From positions 1 to 28,940 of IMG/VR virus record IMGVR_UViG_3300022594_000268: DNA of 28,940 nt; one strand, given 5' to 3'. The stretch is from a virus. The position numbers were made by a program, and so were the translations under genes. The notes beneath the pieces are model-generated. The model did not search any database. It was not told where the DNA came from and worked only from the letters and a program-made list of their open reading frames with translations. Shown here one piece after another: positions 4,383-28,140 of the stretch (positions within the stretch are counted from its first letter, which is position 1; every line of letters begins with the position of its first letter).

Positions 4383-4827
4383 TAAGAAGTACAAGCAACA
4401 AAAAGCAGTTAAAGAACTAGCCGAACAGTTTACTATTGAGTTAGACAAACAGTTGCCCTTAACTGTGCTACCCGACGGTAGTGTAGTTTATAAGGACTTT
4501 TTAGTTAAACAAATGACCAATGCTAATTGGGGAATTTATCATGTCACAAGTAAATCCCTAGTTGAACAATATTTTCTTAAAAGCTGTGCGCTAATGGCCG
4601 CCAAAGCATACCACAAGACGGATATGTTTAAGTTTTCTGAAATTAAACAATTAGACAATCGCTATTGGGCTAGTTATTGTGATAACTTGGTCTACAAGAA
4701 AAACATTAAAACTGCAAAAGATTTTGAGAGGTTTTTAGTTTTGTTAAATAAACTAGAAGACAGCGAACAGAAAGCACAACACTACAAGGAAGAAATTTCC
4801 AGTATGTTTAAGTGGAGTTTTGTATAA
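4369..4827 (+). CDS. Phage hypothetical protein
   Basis: This is a 152-residue, lysine-rich soluble protein with no signal peptide or membrane segment. The start at 4369 lies 14 bases inside the previous gene, preceded by a CAGAGA weak ribosome site. The stop TAA (4825-4827) is embedded in the TATAAATA late box that serves the next gene. No catalytic motif is seen. Its position in a late cassette suggests a head or assembly accessory role. Confidence 0.65.
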   Translation: MKKYNKKYKQQKAVKELAEQFTIELDKQLPLTVLPDGSVVYKDFLVKQMTNANWGIYHVTSKSLVEQYFLKSCALMAAKAYHKTDMFKFSEIKQLDNRYWASYCDNLVYKKNIKTAKDFERFLVLLNKLEDSEQKAQHYKEEISSMFKWSFV

Positions 4828-4856: not shown

Positions 4857-5843
4857 ATGCAAATTAGAGAAATCAACAAACCAGTAACTGCCGCGGCACT
4901 CAACGAGAGCCTAGCAAAGAAGTTTGGTTATAAAATGAACTTTGAAAAGTTTACAAACGAGCAACTAGAAGATGCTCGTAACAAGCTACGCACAAAGATT
5001 AGTCAATTTGAAGTTAACGAAAGCTTCGACTCTGTGCTAGAAAGTCCAGAATATCAAAAAACACGTTTGATGTTAGATTGCTTGAATCAAGAAATCCTAG
5101 AAAGAGAAGAGCAAGTTGAAGAAGGTGTTTGCCCAGATTGCGGTGAAAGCCCATGTGAATGCGAACACGAGCATGAGGACAAAGAAGAACGTGCTGACGA
5201 GAGCCGTAGCTATGTAAACTTTATCCGTAATCGTGCTTCACGTTTCTCAGTTCCAGAAAGCTGGATTAACTCAGCTATTAACAGAATTCAATTAGGCGAA
5301 AGCGATCGCGAAGAACTTAAGGCAGAACTACAATTACGTTACGATTTAAATGAATCACAAGCTAGCTGGATGTTATTAGAAGGCGAAGAAGATAAGGCCG
5401 AAATCATCATGGCAACTAAAGATATGGTTGACCGTGTTACAGGTTGGTTAGAAGACGTGGCCGCTATGAAGGCAGAACAGTTATTAGAACTAGTAGATTC
5501 CATAGGAAAGCAACAAGGCAGCGATGTAGCTCAACAGTACAATGATGCTGTTAAGCCAGCATTGGAGGCCATTTATACAGCATTAGAGACATCACGTCAA
5601 GGACTACAAGGCGCATTGTCTATTGTGTCAGGCGGAGAGGCTCCAGTTATGGGCGCACCAGCAGGTGGAGCTCCAGCAATTGGTGGTGCAGACATGGGTG
5701 CTCCAGCAGATGCAGGTCTTCCTCCAATGGGTTCCGATGAAGAAGGTATGACACCTCCTGCACCGGAAGCAGGCCGTGAGAAGCGTGAAAGTGTAGATTA
5801 TTCACGTCGCTTAGGCATCCTTTTAAACTCAAAAAAAAAGTAA
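4857..5843 (+). CDS. Probable virion protein with Cys motif and Gly/Ala/Pro/Met linker; possible -1 frameshift at its end
   Basis: This is a 328-residue protein. The N-terminus MQIREINKP matches the leader-like pattern of its neighbours, and LNES (15-18) and LLEG (about 172-175) resemble T4 prohead-protease sites (L/I-x-E before a small residue). C92, C95, C100 and C102 form a CxxC-x4-CxC zinc-ribbon-like knuckle inside a very acidic region. Residues about 185-260 are helical, and 262-312 are a Gly/Ala/Pro/Met-rich linker. The reading ends TCA AAA AAA AAG TAA TAA; a -1 slip on A AAA AAG would run straight into the 5870 frame and give a 433-residue fusion. A structural role is inferred. Confidence 0.7.
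   Translation: MQIREINKPVTAAALNESLAKKFGYKMNFEKFTNEQLEDARNKLRTKISQFEVNESFDSVLESPEYQKTRLMLDCLNQEILEREEQVEEGVCPDCGESPCECEHEHEDKEERADESRSYVNFIRNRASRFSVPESWINSAINRIQLGESDREELKAELQLRYDLNESQASWMLLEGEEDKAEIIMATKDMVDRVTGWLEDVAAMKAEQLLELVDSIGKQQGSDVAQQYNDAVKPALEAIYTALETSRQGLQGALSIVSGGEAPVMGAPAGGAPAIGGADMGAPADAGLPPMGSDEEGMTPPAPEAGREKRESVDYSRRLGILLNSKKK
5829..5840 (+). other. Candidate -1 ribosomal slippery site (TC-A9-G)
   Basis: The zero-frame codons are TCA AAA AAA AAG immediately before TAATAA. The heptamer A AAA AAG is the E. coli dnaX slip sequence. The -1 frame is open from 5840 through the whole 5870 gene. The same 12-base string occurs at 18638-18649. A homopolymer sequencing error is the alternative. 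Confidence 0.45.
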
Positions 5844-5857
5844 TAAGTGAAAACATA

Positions 5858-5885
5858 GACCCCTTAGTTATGACACTAAGGAGTC
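5858..5885 (+). promoter_or_regulatory. Hairpin with the 5870 start codon in its loop
   Basis: The arms GAC-C-CCTTAGT and ACTAAGG-A-GTC pair over 10 base pairs with one C/A mismatch, around the 6-base loop TATGAC, which contains the ATG at 5870. It lies 17 bases downstream of the slippery site. It could hide the start codon, stimulate frameshifting, or both; the spacer is longer than the usual 5-9 bases. Confidence 0.5.
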
Positions 5886-6157
5886 TTCAATCAGCCGCAA
5901 ACAATCAAGGCTCACAAGCGCCAATGACATGGAAGGCACTCAACAATGCCGCAGCCAGTCTTGGCGCTCCTGATATTGACTACGATCGCTTTGCCGCACG
6001 TTGGGAAACAGATCCTGTACTAAAACAGTTAGTAGACCGCTTTGACGGATCAGGACTTGTAATCAAAACCAATAACAAAGAACAACCAGAAAAGAGATCC
6101 AAAGGTGGAGAAAGCGAAGTTAGCAAAATGGCTAAACACGCTATGCATCACCGTTGA
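5870..6157 (+). CDS. Phage hypothetical protein, possibly made as a -1 frameshift extension
   Basis: This is a 95-residue soluble protein (central part about residues 22-68, with WKALNNAAASLGAPDIDYD; basic C-terminal tail). The ATG at 5870 has no ribosome site before it and lies in the loop of a 10-base-pair hairpin, so independent initiation looks poor. The frame is continuous upstream to the slip site at 5840, which would add VISENIDPLV before the Met and join it to the 4857 product. The stop TGA is shared with the TTGACA box of the next promoter. Function unknown. Confidence 0.6.
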   Translation: MTLRSLQSAANNQGSQAPMTWKALNNAAASLGAPDIDYDRFAARWETDPVLKQLVDRFDGSGLVIKTNNKEQPEKRSKGGESEVSKMAKHAMHHR

Positions 6158-17437: not shown

Positions 17438-18703
17438 ATGATTTTAGCCTGGCTCTTACTCCTTACTGGTCTTACAATTTCAGCTGTCGCAATCTACTAC
17501 TCCGTAGTAGGTTTGGCAGCTATCTTCTCGGCCGCTGTCGTTCCCATTATTGTTATGGGCTCTGCATTAGAAGTGGCCAAGCTAGTATGTGCCAGCTGGC
17601 TTAAAGCTAATTGGAGTAAGGCTCCACGATTGATGAAGATATACATGACTACTGCGGTAGCTGTGTTGATGCTTATCACTTCAATGGGTATTTTTGGATT
17701 CCTTTCCAAAGCACACTCAGACCAAAGTTTAGTGTCCGGTGACGTTACAAGTAAGATTGCCATCTATGATGAAAAAATCAAAACCGAGAAAGAGAATATT
17801 GAAGCAAACCGTAAGGCACTTAAACAGATGGATGAGGGAGTGGACCAAGTACTGGGTCGCTCAACAGATGAAAAAGGTGCCGACAAAGCTGTGGCTATGC
17901 GTCGCTCCCAGCAGAAAGAACGTAGTCGCTTACAAGCTGAAATATCACAGTCGCAAAAGTCTATCGCGGAACTTAACGATGCCCGTGCGCCTATTGCCGC
18001 CGAAGTACGTAAGGTTGAAGCAGAAGTTGGACCTTTAAAATACATTGCGGCGTTTGTATATGGTGCAACAGATGAATCAGTGCTAGAACGTGCTGTTACT
18101 TGGGTTATCATTACAATTATTGTAGTGTTCGATCCATTAGCAGTTATTATGTTGCTAGCCGCACAAATGACATTTGGGTGGAAGAAGGAAGAGGAAGAAG
18201 TTCCGCTATTACATAATACTGTACCAGTGCATGTAACTGAAGTAACTCAACCCAAACCGCAAAACGATCCAACTTATGAACAAGATGACGGTCCTTTAAC
18301 TGACGAGCAAATTAATCAGCTTAAAGAGTCAGTACAGCGATTTAATGATGCCGGCGAACATCCGCAGGACACATTTGAACATGAACACACAGAGGAAGAA
18401 GTTCCAACCGAAACACAGCCGACTGCACTAGGAGGTGATATAACAGCGTCTGAGGAAACAGTAGAAGGTAATTCTATTGACCAATGGAACAAGATGATCG
18501 AAGAAGCTGAAAAAGCTGTACAAGAAGAAGCTGTTGACATCCAGGGAGAAGCTAAGAAATATAGCATTATTCCTGAGCTTCAAGAAGAGTTAGATAGAAT
18601 CAAACCTGACTTAACAGAAGTGATCGAACCCGAAGAATCAAAAAAAAAGACTTACATGACAAAGGACAATCAGGGGAAAATCCAAGTCAAGGAGACCAAG
18701 TAG
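17438..18703 (+). CDS. Membrane/coiled-coil phage protein with a -1 frameshift site
   Basis: This is a 421-residue zero-frame product. Hydrophobic segments lie at about 2-20, 24-50, 67-90 and 219-243, with a charged coiled coil (about 105-205) between the third and fourth and a long acidic C-terminal tail. FDPLAVIMLLAAQ in the last segment is a recurring feature of this phage protein type. The run TCA AAA AAA AAG at 18638-18649 is 18 codons before the stop; a -1 slip there replaces KTYMTKDNQG... by 112 other residues and gives a 516-residue protein. Its function is unknown; a host inner-membrane role is inferred. Confidence 0.72.
   Translation: MILAWLLLLTGLTISAVAIYYSVVGLAAIFSAAVVPIIVMGSALEVAKLVCASWLKANWSKAPRLMKIYMTTAVAVLMLITSMGIFGFLSKAHSDQSLVSGDVTSKIAIYDEKIKTEKENIEANRKALKQMDEGVDQVLGRSTDEKGADKAVAMRRSQQKERSRLQAEISQSQKSIAELNDARAPIAAEVRKVEAEVGPLKYIAAFVYGATDESVLERAVTWVIITIIVVFDPLAVIMLLAAQMTFGWKKEEEEVPLLHNTVPVHVTEVTQPKPQNDPTYEQDDGPLTDEQINQLKESVQRFNDAGEHPQDTFEHEHTEEEVPTETQPTALGGDITASEETVEGNSIDQWNKMIEEAEKAVQEEAVDIQGEAKKYSIIPELQEELDRIKPDLTEVIEPEESKKKTYMTKDNQGKIQVKETK
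18638..18649 (+). other. Candidate -1 ribosomal slippery site (TC-A9-G)
   Basis: The zero frame reads TCA AAA AAA AAG; the heptamer A AAA AAG (18643-18649) is the dnaX-type slip sequence. It is the same 12-base string as at 5829-5840. No convincing stimulatory hairpin was seen just downstream. A homopolymer sequencing error is the alternative. Confidence 0.6.
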
Positions 18704-18987
18704 GATACGTACAAAACGCTGAACAAGGCGCAAGTACACTTTGGGCAAGAATACAAACAAGAACTTCTGACGATATATTCAAACCTATAGACCGACTCTA
18801 TGTAGAATTTAATAAGGATCGGTTTTCAGGAATAGATGCATCCAACGAGTTAGAGGTACAAAAATTTATTAACGATATCCAATCTGGAGAACATAAATTT
18901 GACGACTATTCTGCAGAAGATATCGAATACTTTGCAAAGAGAATATATGAACTTAGGGAAAATAACAGTAATAACACCGCCGGATAA
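18649..18987 (+). CDS. -1 frame extension of the 17438 protein (no start codon of its own)
   Basis: From 18649 the -1 frame runs 112 codons to TAA 18985-18987. The frame is open back only to TGA 18607 and contains no ATG, GTG or TTG anywhere, so normal initiation cannot explain it. The sequence looks like genuine protein: DIFKPIDRLYVEFNKDRFSG and later FDDYSAEDIEYFAKRIYELR. It fills a 240-base stretch that would otherwise be empty and overlaps the 18947 start. Product: join of 17438-18649 and 18649-18987. Function unknown. Confidence 0.65.
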   Translation, partial: DLHDKGQSGENPSQGDQVGYVQNAEQGASTLWARIQTRTSDDIFKPIDRLYVEFNKDRFSGIDASNELEVQKFINDIQSGEHKFDDYSAEDIEYFAKRIYELRENNSNNTAG

Positions 18988-24407: not shown

Positions 24408-24710
24408 ATGCCTAGCACCGATATTCAGTTAGATGAAAAGATTAAGATTAAAGTTTCCGAACCAAAGAACTGGAAAGTAATCTTATTGAATGACGACACT
24501 ACTCCTATGGAATTTGTAATTGCAGTTCTTATGGAGATTTTTAAACATAGTCATAATAGTGCTACTGATGTTACTATGCAAGTACACGAAACTGGTAGCG
24601 GCATTGCTGGTGTGTATAGTTTTGAAATTGCAGAAGCTAAAGCAGTTGAAGCAACACAGACTGCACGTACAAACGGTCATCCGTTACAAATTAAATTGGA
24701 AGAAGAATGA
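24408..24710 (+). CDS. clpS: ClpS N-degron adaptor
   Basis: This is a 100-residue protein. WKVILLNDDTTPMEFVIAVL is the ClpS core with the N-D-D substrate pocket; VHETGSGIAGVYSFEIAEAK is the second conserved block. ClpS delivers proteins with N-end-rule residues to ClpAP; no ClpA or ClpP is encoded here, so the phage copy would redirect the host protease. Its stop overlaps the heme oxygenase start (ATGA), so the two are translationally coupled. Confidence 0.93.
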   Translation: MPSTDIQLDEKIKIKVSEPKNWKVILLNDDTTPMEFVIAVLMEIFKHSHNSATDVTMQVHETGSGIAGVYSFEIAEAKAVEATQTARTNGHPLQIKLEEE

Positions 24711-25264
24711 GCAATTTACGTGAACTAACCAAAGAAGCACACACAAACGCAGAACGTCAAGAGTTTGTAAAGATTCTATTTTCAGGTTCTATCAATCCAC
24801 AGTTATACGCAACATTTTTAAAAAATCAACATCCGCAGTATGAAATTCTAGAAGTATGTGCAATGCCACATGCATTATTAACTGGTCTCCCGGATATCCG
24901 CAGAGCACCAGCAATCTTATCAGATTTCCTCGAACTATGGGGAAATGATAATACCGAACAGCCGCAGATCCTTCCTGTGGTTAATGATTACATTCAACAC
25001 ATCCTTAGCATTAAGGACGATCCTAAAAAACTAATGGCTCACTTGTATGTACGCCATATGGGCGACCTAGCTGGCGGACAAATGATTGCTAAGAAAGTAC
25101 CCGGCTCAGGTAAGCTATACAAGTTTGAAGATCCAGAAGCACTTAAAGTTGCTATCCGTGAACGCCTAAGCGATGACATGGCAGATGAAGCTAAAATTTG
25201 TTTTGGCTTTGCTACTCGCATGTTTAAAGAGATGATGGAACTAGTAGAGTATAAAGATGAGTAA
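24707..25264 (+). CDS. Heme oxygenase
   Basis: This is a 185-residue all-helical protein. ELTKEAHTNAER places the proximal heme ligand His at H12; YVRHMGDLAGGQMI (114-127) is the distal-helix signature with the flexible GG. It opens heme to biliverdin, CO and Fe(II) using reduced ferredoxin. The next gene, overlapping by eight bases, is a bilin reductase, so biliverdin is probably passed on. The upstream overlap is with clpS. Confidence 0.88.
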   Translation: MSNLRELTKEAHTNAERQEFVKILFSGSINPQLYATFLKNQHPQYEILEVCAMPHALLTGLPDIRRAPAILSDFLELWGNDNTEQPQILPVVNDYIQHILSIKDDPKKLMAHLYVRHMGDLAGGQMIAKKVPGSGKLYKFEDPEALKVAIRERLSDDMADEAKICFGFATRMFKEMMELVEYKDE

Positions 25265-25937
25265 AGTTTGGGACACCCTGATAGGCATTCAACAATACTT
25301 TGAACAACAATTTTATGCAACAGGCAGTATTATACATGAACCCGGAATGGATCGTTTTAATCAGCCAGGTTGGGTTAACAAAGTTTGGGCAAGTAGCGTT
25401 TATCGTAGAGCGCACATTGATGTAGTAGATGCCCGTGAAACTAAGGGCTTGTGGATGATGCATTGTTGCATTTTTCCGCACTTACATAATCCCGCTCCTA
25501 TCTTTGGGTTTGACGTTATTGCCGGCAAGAATAAAATTACAGGTTGTTTCTACGATTACAGTCCTAGTGCTGATCGTGAACATCCTATGTTAGATTGGTT
25601 TGCCGATGAAGCACAGCTACTACAGTGGAACAAGACTCGTAAACTACCTGACTGGGCAGAACGTATTTTTAGTGGTAGTATGGTTGCCGCTGGCAATGTT
25701 AGCGAAGAAGAGGAACTAGCACAGATCTTTGCTATTGCTAAAAAAGGCATACATCATTATTTAGATACGGTAGGTGAAACTAATAAAACTGCCGTTAGTT
25801 GTCTAGACGCACAAAATTATTACTGTCAAAATCAGAAGCAAAACCCGCACACACCTAAAGTTATGGTAAGTTTAGGGCTATCTGAGGAAGATGTACAAGT
25901 GTTTATCCAGGATTGTTTGTTCCCAGAAGTTCGATAA
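25257..25937 (+). CDS. Ferredoxin-dependent bilin reductase (PcyX/PebS-like)
   Basis: This is a 226-residue protein of the FDBR family. PAPIFGFDVIAGKNK (D86) followed by ITGCFYDYSP is the conserved active-site block, and YYCQNQKQNPHTP with the C-terminal LFPEVR is the family's ending. It would reduce biliverdin from the neighbouring heme oxygenase to a phycobilin with ferredoxin electrons. Marine phages carry both PebS and PcyX types; with no photosynthesis genes in view, PcyX-like is my preference, but product specificity is not readable from the motif. Confidence 0.82.
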   Translation: MSKVWDTLIGIQQYFEQQFYATGSIIHEPGMDRFNQPGWVNKVWASSVYRRAHIDVVDARETKGLWMMHCCIFPHLHNPAPIFGFDVIAGKNKITGCFYDYSPSADREHPMLDWFADEAQLLQWNKTRKLPDWAERIFSGSMVAAGNVSEEEELAQIFAIAKKGIHHYLDTVGETNKTAVSCLDAQNYYCQNQKQNPHTPKVMVSLGLSEEDVQVFIQDCLFPEVR

Positions 25938-27690: not shown

Positions 27691-28140
27691 ATGACCAAAT
27701 CAAGGGCAATATGTTTGTTAGCATTACTGCCACTTTACGTAGTGGCTGCTCCTCTTGCCGACTATACCTTTAAAAGCCCAAGTTTTAATGGTGTAGGCTA
27801 CAGCAGTCACGTTTTAACTATTGAAAATCAAGAGTTTACCCGTAAGGCGCAAATACAAAAAGATATACAAGCCGCTCTTGATAAAGCAAAGGCCGATGCG
27901 GCCAATACAAATATTAACAAGTTTTTAAACAACTTGGAATCACGCATTTACGCACAAATTAGTCAAAATTTAGCTACAGCTATGTTTGCTAATGGCGGCA
28001 GTAATTCAGGTACATTAAATTTTGAAGGCAACACTATATTCTGGAGTAAAGACGGAACTAGTGTTACAATGACTGTTACTGATGTTACTGGCAATCAAAC
28101 AACAGTAGTAATTCCACTAAGCCAGTTCCAGTTCCAATAA
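27691..28140 (+). CDS. csgF: CsgF-like curli secretion accessory protein
   Basis: This is a 149-residue protein with a Sec signal peptide (hydrophobic LLALLPLYVVAAP; cleavage near A20). DYTFKSPSFNG matches the CsgF N-terminus that plugs into the CsgG pore (E. coli FQFRNPNFGGNP). The middle is charged and helical, and the end (VTMTVTDVTGNQTT, VVIPLSQFQF) matches the CsgF beta tail. One base separates it from csgG. No curlin (CsgA/B) is seen, so the pair may serve as a pore rather than for fibres. Confidence 0.87.
   Translation: MTKSRAICLLALLPLYVVAAPLADYTFKSPSFNGVGYSSHVLTIENQEFTRKAQIQKDIQAALDKAKADAANTNINKFLNNLESRIYAQISQNLATAMFANGGSNSGTLNFEGNTIFWSKDGTSVTMTVTDVTGNQTTVVIPLSQFQFQ

Follow-up and report, generated by a model that had tools for sequence, protein, structure and literature searches.

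Does a run of nine adenines at the end of a phage gene serve to join its product to the protein encoded in the frame behind it and, if so, does the shift occur on the ribosome or in the RNA polymerase? The question arises from IMG/VR virus record IMGVR_UViG_3300022594_000268, of which positions 1 to 28,940 were analyzed here (the window, 28,940 nt in all). A preliminary description of this DNA had noted that the same 12-base string ends the gene at 4857 and recurs elsewhere, and had proposed that it fuses two neighboring virion-region genes. The features of the first site are as follows.

4857..5843, + strand: 0-frame gene; 328 residues, mostly helical, C-terminal LLNSKKK, stop TAA at 5841-5843
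5829..5840, + strand: slippery site TC-A9-G, with the A run at 5831-5839
5840..6157, + strand: -1 frame C-terminal extension; 105 residues, VISENIDPLV..., stop TGA at 6155-6157
5857..5886, + strand: predicted RNA hairpin; lower stem 5857-5860/5883-5886, upper stem 5862-5868/5875-5881, with ATG5870 in the loop
5870..5872, + strand: ATG5870, the gene-finder start for a separate 95-residue gene; start codon not conserved

Two exact copies of TCAAAAAAAAAG occur in the window, both on the + strand (5829-5840 and 18638-18649) and, as had been described, in the same frame relation; 0.01 copies are expected from dinucleotide shuffles. The A9 tract alone is expected 2.28 times from base composition and hence is not rare, so the case rests on conservation. 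The 0 frame of the 4857 gene ends in TCA AAA AAA AAG TAA TAA (TCA to the first TAA, 5829-5843), and two in-phase heptamers overlap within the slip string, A_AAA_AAA (5831-5837) and A_AAA_AAG (5834-5840). In the -1 frame, reading continues as GTA ATA AGT GAA AAC ATA GAC CCC TTA GTT ATG ... and stays open for 105 codons (5840-6154), which bears out the claim of a stop-free path from the end of the 4857 gene into the 5870 frame and predicts, by translation, a fusion of 328 + 105 = 433 residues. Stop readthrough was considered and rejected: three stops, TAA TAA followed by TAG, fall within six codons of the 0 frame. The T4-type late promoter TATAAATA, present at 4823, occurs in the window at chance frequency (2 found, 2.8 expected).

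Relatives were gathered in tblastn-confirmed searches using the -1 frame protein (30 viral contigs) and the 0-frame protein (89 loci, 80 kept) as queries, and in a profile search with the extension (103 relatives, 80 kept); E-values of the locus searches apply to candidate stretches only. Dropping extensions at least 90% identical left 63 representatives, which are not phylogenetically independent. C-A9 and the 0-frame TAA are invariant in 63 of these 63, and every relative of the window's clade has 100-122 open codons in the -1 frame, which encodes one protein family (consensus ExxDPLVxTLRxLQS...DYDxFAARW...LVxRFDGxG...MAKRAT). The codon before the A run is TCA or CCA; other conserved Ser columns of the 0-frame gene have mixed codons, with a modal fraction of 0.51-0.92. 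The third Lys-position codon is AAG in 56 relatives, AAC in five and AAA in two, so that a slippery X_XXY_YYZ heptamer stands in the correct phase in 63/63 (A_AAA_AAG in 56, A_AAA_AAA or the AAC form in the rest). Although these genes encode Lys more often by AAA than by AAG, 56 of the 58 Lys at this position are AAG. A second, more distant clade, found with L246, has A9 or A10 in 76 of 77 junctions, preceded in nearly all by Ser TCA, Pro CCA or Gly GGA. The remaining junction, in L309, has eight A's only (L309:3895-3915), while L313 has kept nine A's in another codon phase (AAT AAA AAA AAA GTT TAA; L313:3900-3925). In most marine members the stop lies one codon further on (AAG GCT TAA). The tract, the stop, the -1 frame protein and the conservation of the hairpins described below are all direct readings of these sequences. 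In one relative, L105, the 0-frame homologue has an apparent in-contig frame break near codon 44 that may reflect misassembly; the slip junction of L105 is intact.

This depth of conservation bears on an artifact that the preliminary description wished to see excluded, namely that an assembly or sequencing error in the homopolymer has split a true single frame. Indel errors do occur at homopolymers, and the same motif appears here twice, as a shared error mode might produce. More than 100 separately assembled contigs from many samples agree on the same frame break, however, and the A10, A8 and AAC variants retain the frame relation. Such an error would also not yield conserved hairpins or an invariant TAA, and we consider it excluded for practical purposes, its probability being negligible.

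The preliminary description spoke of two genes, which raises the alternative that the 5870 frame is translated from its own ATG, or by ribosomes that reinitiate past the stop, with the A run being incidental. In its favor, the distance from the 0-frame stop to ATG5870 is 27 nt, and in the cultured relatives GAP32 and RaK2 each of the two genes does have its own start. Against this, no Shine-Dalgarno sequence was found upstream of ATG5870 in the window, and the codon lies in the loop of the predicted hairpin, both as had been observed. Among the 63 relatives, 43 have no ATG in the first 20 codons of the -1 frame, other codons taking its place, and 31 have no ATG, GTG or TTG there. Pairwise differences over -1 frame codons 4-10, which lie upstream of ATG5870, are 0.23/0.20/0.52, an excess at third positions indicating that the codons before ATG5870 are under selection and translated in the -1 frame. 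Two separate genes would, moreover, not keep the A run invariant. Because start codons are missing and selection extends ahead of the ATG, a separate start at 5870 is not credible for this family, and from these comparisons 5870 is not an independent gene in it; the reading with separate starts is very improbable. The slip would thus join both frames, as proposed, but the downstream frame, having no start codon in most relatives, does not really make a second gene.

Since the A run, the 0-frame stop and the protein read in the -1 frame are all deeply conserved, which supports the original slip-and-fuse reading, -1 recoding of some kind at A9 is very probably real. To the more specific reading, that programmed -1 recoding, mainly by the ribosome, yields a C-terminally extended minor virion protein, we assign a probability of about 0.6. 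Most synthesis would stop at TAA 5841 and give the 328-residue virion-type protein, and a minority would shift to the -1 frame (SKKK-VISENIDPLV...) and give a 433-residue isoform, adding a winged-helix-like domain and a basic tail at the C-terminus. On the ribosome, tRNA-Lys would re-pair from AAA AAG (or AAA AAA) to the -1 codons AAA AAA, with help, in most lineages, from the hairpin that follows and perhaps also from the neighboring stop. RNA polymerase slippage on the same A9 may contribute, and both may act together. The outcome would be a set ratio of short versus extended subunits in the virion. The slippage itself, its route, its efficiency and the role of the long form are what we infer here.

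Downstream structure was compared between the clades. In the window's clade, recoding the same protein with synonymous codons gives less stable structures than the actual hairpin (mean z -3.3, vs -0.2 in a control region). Covariation is in register, with 69% of cells paired vs 31-45% for slid versions and 62 double-changed cells vs 28 in shuffles. It starts a median of 12.5 nt past the slip (range 1-30; 16 nt in the window itself), and about a fifth of the lineages have no significant hairpin. Members of the second clade form a stem of 8-12 bp from unrelated sequence (GATGCGGAT-loop-ATCCGCATC type), which begins at a median of 5 nt past the slip. No hairpin was found downstream of the slip in most marine lineages. 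Since stimulators of -1 frameshifting usually begin 5-8 nt downstream of the slip (PMC4066793), the spacing in the second clade counts for the ribosomal route, and the presence of two unrelated hairpins at the same place favors a role in ribosomal frameshifting. The median of 12.5 nt in the window's clade and the hairpin-free lineages count against that route. Within 45 nt 5' of the slip there is no invariant AGG-type motif that could act as an upstream Shine-Dalgarno-like stimulator.

The second copy of the slip string lies in a different gene.

17438..18703, + strand: second recoded gene; 0-frame product of 421 residues with hydrophobic N-terminal segments and weak DUF4407/tetraspanin-like matches
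18638..18649, + strand: second slip site TC-A9-G, identical to the 5829 site and in the same phase
18649..18987, + strand: second -1 extension; 112 codons, DLHDKGQ...GYVQNAEQ...TLWARI...

Here, too, the heptamer is in phase. Among 45 distinct relatives, 40 have TCA-A9-G, four have TCT-A8-G (TCT AAA AAA AAG) and one has A11. Past the slip, the 0 frame runs for about 20 more conserved residues and the -1 frame encodes GYVQNxEQ...LWxRI, often plus a further stretch. In L120, L121, L172, L181, L182, L190 and others, the second-site module occurs in a single uninterrupted frame without a slip site, which indicates that the fused product exists naturally. No hairpin was detected downstream of the 18638 site (mean z -0.36), which likewise counts against the ribosomal route.

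Are such A runs otherwise tolerated in these genomes? Seven related contigs (G001-G007; 1.49 Mb, both strands) served as a background sample. Runs of at least nine A's are far rarer in them than composition suggests: 16 were found, of which 12 are the recoding sites (seven at site 1, five at site 2). Of the four that remain, one (in L261) falls within a long coding frame, and the others look intergenic, gene-terminal or terminator-like. The earlier suggestion of a shared strategy rather than chance is strengthened, as both sites are conserved and runs of this length are otherwise nearly absent. Relative to synonymous shuffles, ORFs contain runs of at least eight A's at an observed/expected ratio of 1.51 in the slip phase, mostly owing to the retained recoding sites, and at ratios of 0.14 and 0.12 in the other two. 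For exact A6 runs the ratio is 0.51 in the slip phase vs 1.24 and 0.80 in the other phases. These ratios are descriptive, as the ORFs counted include relatives of one another. The pattern suggests that slippage of both the polymerase type and the ribosome type matters in these hosts.

The strongest alternative to a ribosomal shift is transcriptional slippage, in which RNA polymerase inserts an extra A on the A9 tract (or skips two) and normal reading of the altered transcript gives the same 433-residue protein. Efficient slippage of bacterial polymerase in vivo is documented for runs of nine A or T (PMC5009743), and about 20% is reached on the A11 run of tssM1 (PMC4256274). The run is conserved in length, being A9-A10 in nearly all site-1 relatives and A8 only in L309, with A8 in 4/45 at site 2. 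Length nine is kept even at the synonymous A of TCA, CCA and GGA; this invariant first A also counts against the ribosomal route, as does L313, which changed phase at length nine. The AAC variants drop A_AAA_AAG yet retain A9, and 12 of the 16 long runs in the 1.49 Mb background are the two sites. Depletion of A>=8 in both other phases (0.14, 0.12) is what polymerase slippage predicts, and counts against a purely ribosomal explanation; lineages without a hairpin also fit the polymerase. What polymerase slippage leaves unexplained are the conserved downstream hairpins at frameshift spacing, the A8 runs of four second-site lineages and of L309, and the AAG preference (56/58 Lys) where AAA is the commoner codon. 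Counted for the ribosome, in turn, are the A runs at both sites in the phase needed for A_AAA_AAG slippage and the avoidance elsewhere of exact A6 runs in the slip phase (0.51). We therefore favor the ribosomal route, because of the phase, the AAG preference, the hairpins and the A8 variants, and regard slippage by the polymerase as the main route as possible but distinctly less probable.

What, then, would the recoding join? The 0-frame protein has a partial match of 77 residues to PHROG 14154 (virion structural protein, head and packaging; E 6.7e-8), and phrog_14154 is also matched by 39 of its 42 homologues. The extension gave nothing significant when compared with Pfam and with the sequences of solved structures. 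In its AlphaFold model, a small alpha/beta domain made of helices plus a small beta hairpin (pLDDT about 80-90 for residues 11-80) is followed by a low-confidence basic tail (MAKRAT-type motif). Winged-helix domains make up most of the top fold matches, which are weak (Z 5.1, rmsd 3.0, 69 aligned; best Foldseek E 0.25), so that the extension is a predicted winged-helix-like domain with a basic tail. Large relatives are contigs of 141-356 kb, three of five carrying a T4-type major capsid gene. The slip gene of the window is neighbored by an exonuclease, a tail-fibre-like gene and nrdA/B. The virion region that had been claimed is thus not visible in the window itself, and draws its support from PHROG 14154 and from cultured relatives.

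In the cultured jumbo phages GAP32, RaK2 and CBB, which share the exonuclease next door, a pair of adjacent genes occupies the same place before this gene; each has a start of its own, and there is no A9 slip site.

CBB: CBB_298 and CBB_299, two adjacent genes
GAP32: GAP32_293 and GAP32_294, two adjacent genes
RaK2: ORF135 and ORF136, two adjacent genes

The upstream gene of the pair is homologous to the 0-frame protein (hhalign E 6.7e-7, probability 92). For the downstream gene, homology to the extension is probable (E 4e-4, probability 35): the two are collinear and have similar tails, although the assignment relies on gene position. By mass spectrometry of CBB virions, CBB_298 was detected with 10 unique peptides and CBB_299 with two (PMC5259590, Table 4); the locus tags were checked. 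The domain attached by frameshift in the uncultured clade is thus probably a free virion protein in its cultured cousins. Homologues with the two genes far apart had been named beforehand as a possible refutation; those of the cultured phages are separate and have their own ribosome sites, yet are adjacent, and the slip in this clade is not refuted by them. Searches of an isolated-phage collection (tblastn, several family members) found no relatives with the slip site, the only match being the distant Atu_ph07 (28.7%) over the N part, and hhalign of the extension against the downstream gene of Atu_ph07 found nothing. No earlier report of this site was found in the literature searched, coverage of which was partial.

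Several other features of the window were noted. The genes at 2762, 3466, 4164, 4857 and 25948 have similar short starts (MQIIEF, MKVNQI, MKINEL, MQIREI and MRFSQI, respectively), and a similar motif begins GAP32_294 and RaK2 ORF136; it might act as a signal for capsid targeting or as a propeptide, in the manner of the T4 internal proteins. At 24707-25937, a heme-oxygenase-like gene (by eye) is followed by a ferredoxin oxidoreductase / bilin-reductase-like gene (phrog_7278), and this pair adjoins DnaK-like, Hsp20 and ClpS-like genes. The frame at 27691-28140 encodes a secreted protein that resembles the curli factor CsgF by eye (PHROG 35372, function not known).

Among known systems, E. coli dnaX (tau/gamma) shares the A_AAA_AAG heptamer, a downstream stem-loop (at a median of 5 nt in our second clade) and two products differing in C-terminal length. 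It differs in that the long product here comes from the frameshift and the 0-frame stop immediately follows the slip, as has been described for a small number of bacterial dnaX genes (PMC5009743). In addition, the tract here is A9 rather than A6, no conserved upstream Shine-Dalgarno stimulator was seen and the spacing in the window is about 16 nt. Runs of at least nine A or T are shared with the transcriptional slippage sites of Thermus dnaX, Shigella spa13 and Citrobacter tssM1; spa13 gains a 112-residue C-terminal extension and tssM1 a C-terminal domain (PMC5009743, PMC4256274). What sets the present case apart from those genes is the slip phase together with conserved downstream hairpins, both of which favor the ribosome. 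A minor, C-terminally extended virion protein made by a shift near the stop also occurs in T7/T3 gene 10, Lactobacillus A2 and Listeria PSA, A118 and A500, but the extension here is not an Ig-like beta-sandwich (predicted helical, winged-helix-like), the 4857 protein is not a major capsid or tail protein, and the site is A9. The lambda G/GT tail assembly chaperone likewise involves a -1 shift, close to where a late gene ends. Lambda G/GT lies between the genes for the major tail protein and the tape measure protein, a position not matched here, where the neighbors in the window and the cultured relatives are the exonuclease, nrdA and nrdB; the protein and the slip site also differ. At the same place before the exonuclease lie the gene pairs of CBB, GAP32 and RaK2, homologous in the N part and probably in the C part, but as separate genes with no A9.

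Tentatively, and at a likelihood well below even, these observations would fit a giant-phage lineage that purged long A runs except at two genes, where an A9 cassette usable by polymerase and ribosome sets the short/long ratio of two proteins. The long form of one would add a DNA-binding-type domain to a virion protein, which cultured relatives supply separately, and splitting and frameshifting would be interchangeable. For uncultured T4-like jumbo phages, two deeply conserved recoding events are added, one of them in a virion-type gene, at sites that gene-finding software would call as separate or truncated genes. The frameshift-fused and split versions of one virion component offer a natural comparison. 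The lineages with AAG, AAC, AAA, A8 or phase-shifted A9, with and without hairpins, make a test case for ribosome versus polymerase slippage, in which L313 and L309 are natural variants useful for telling the two apart.
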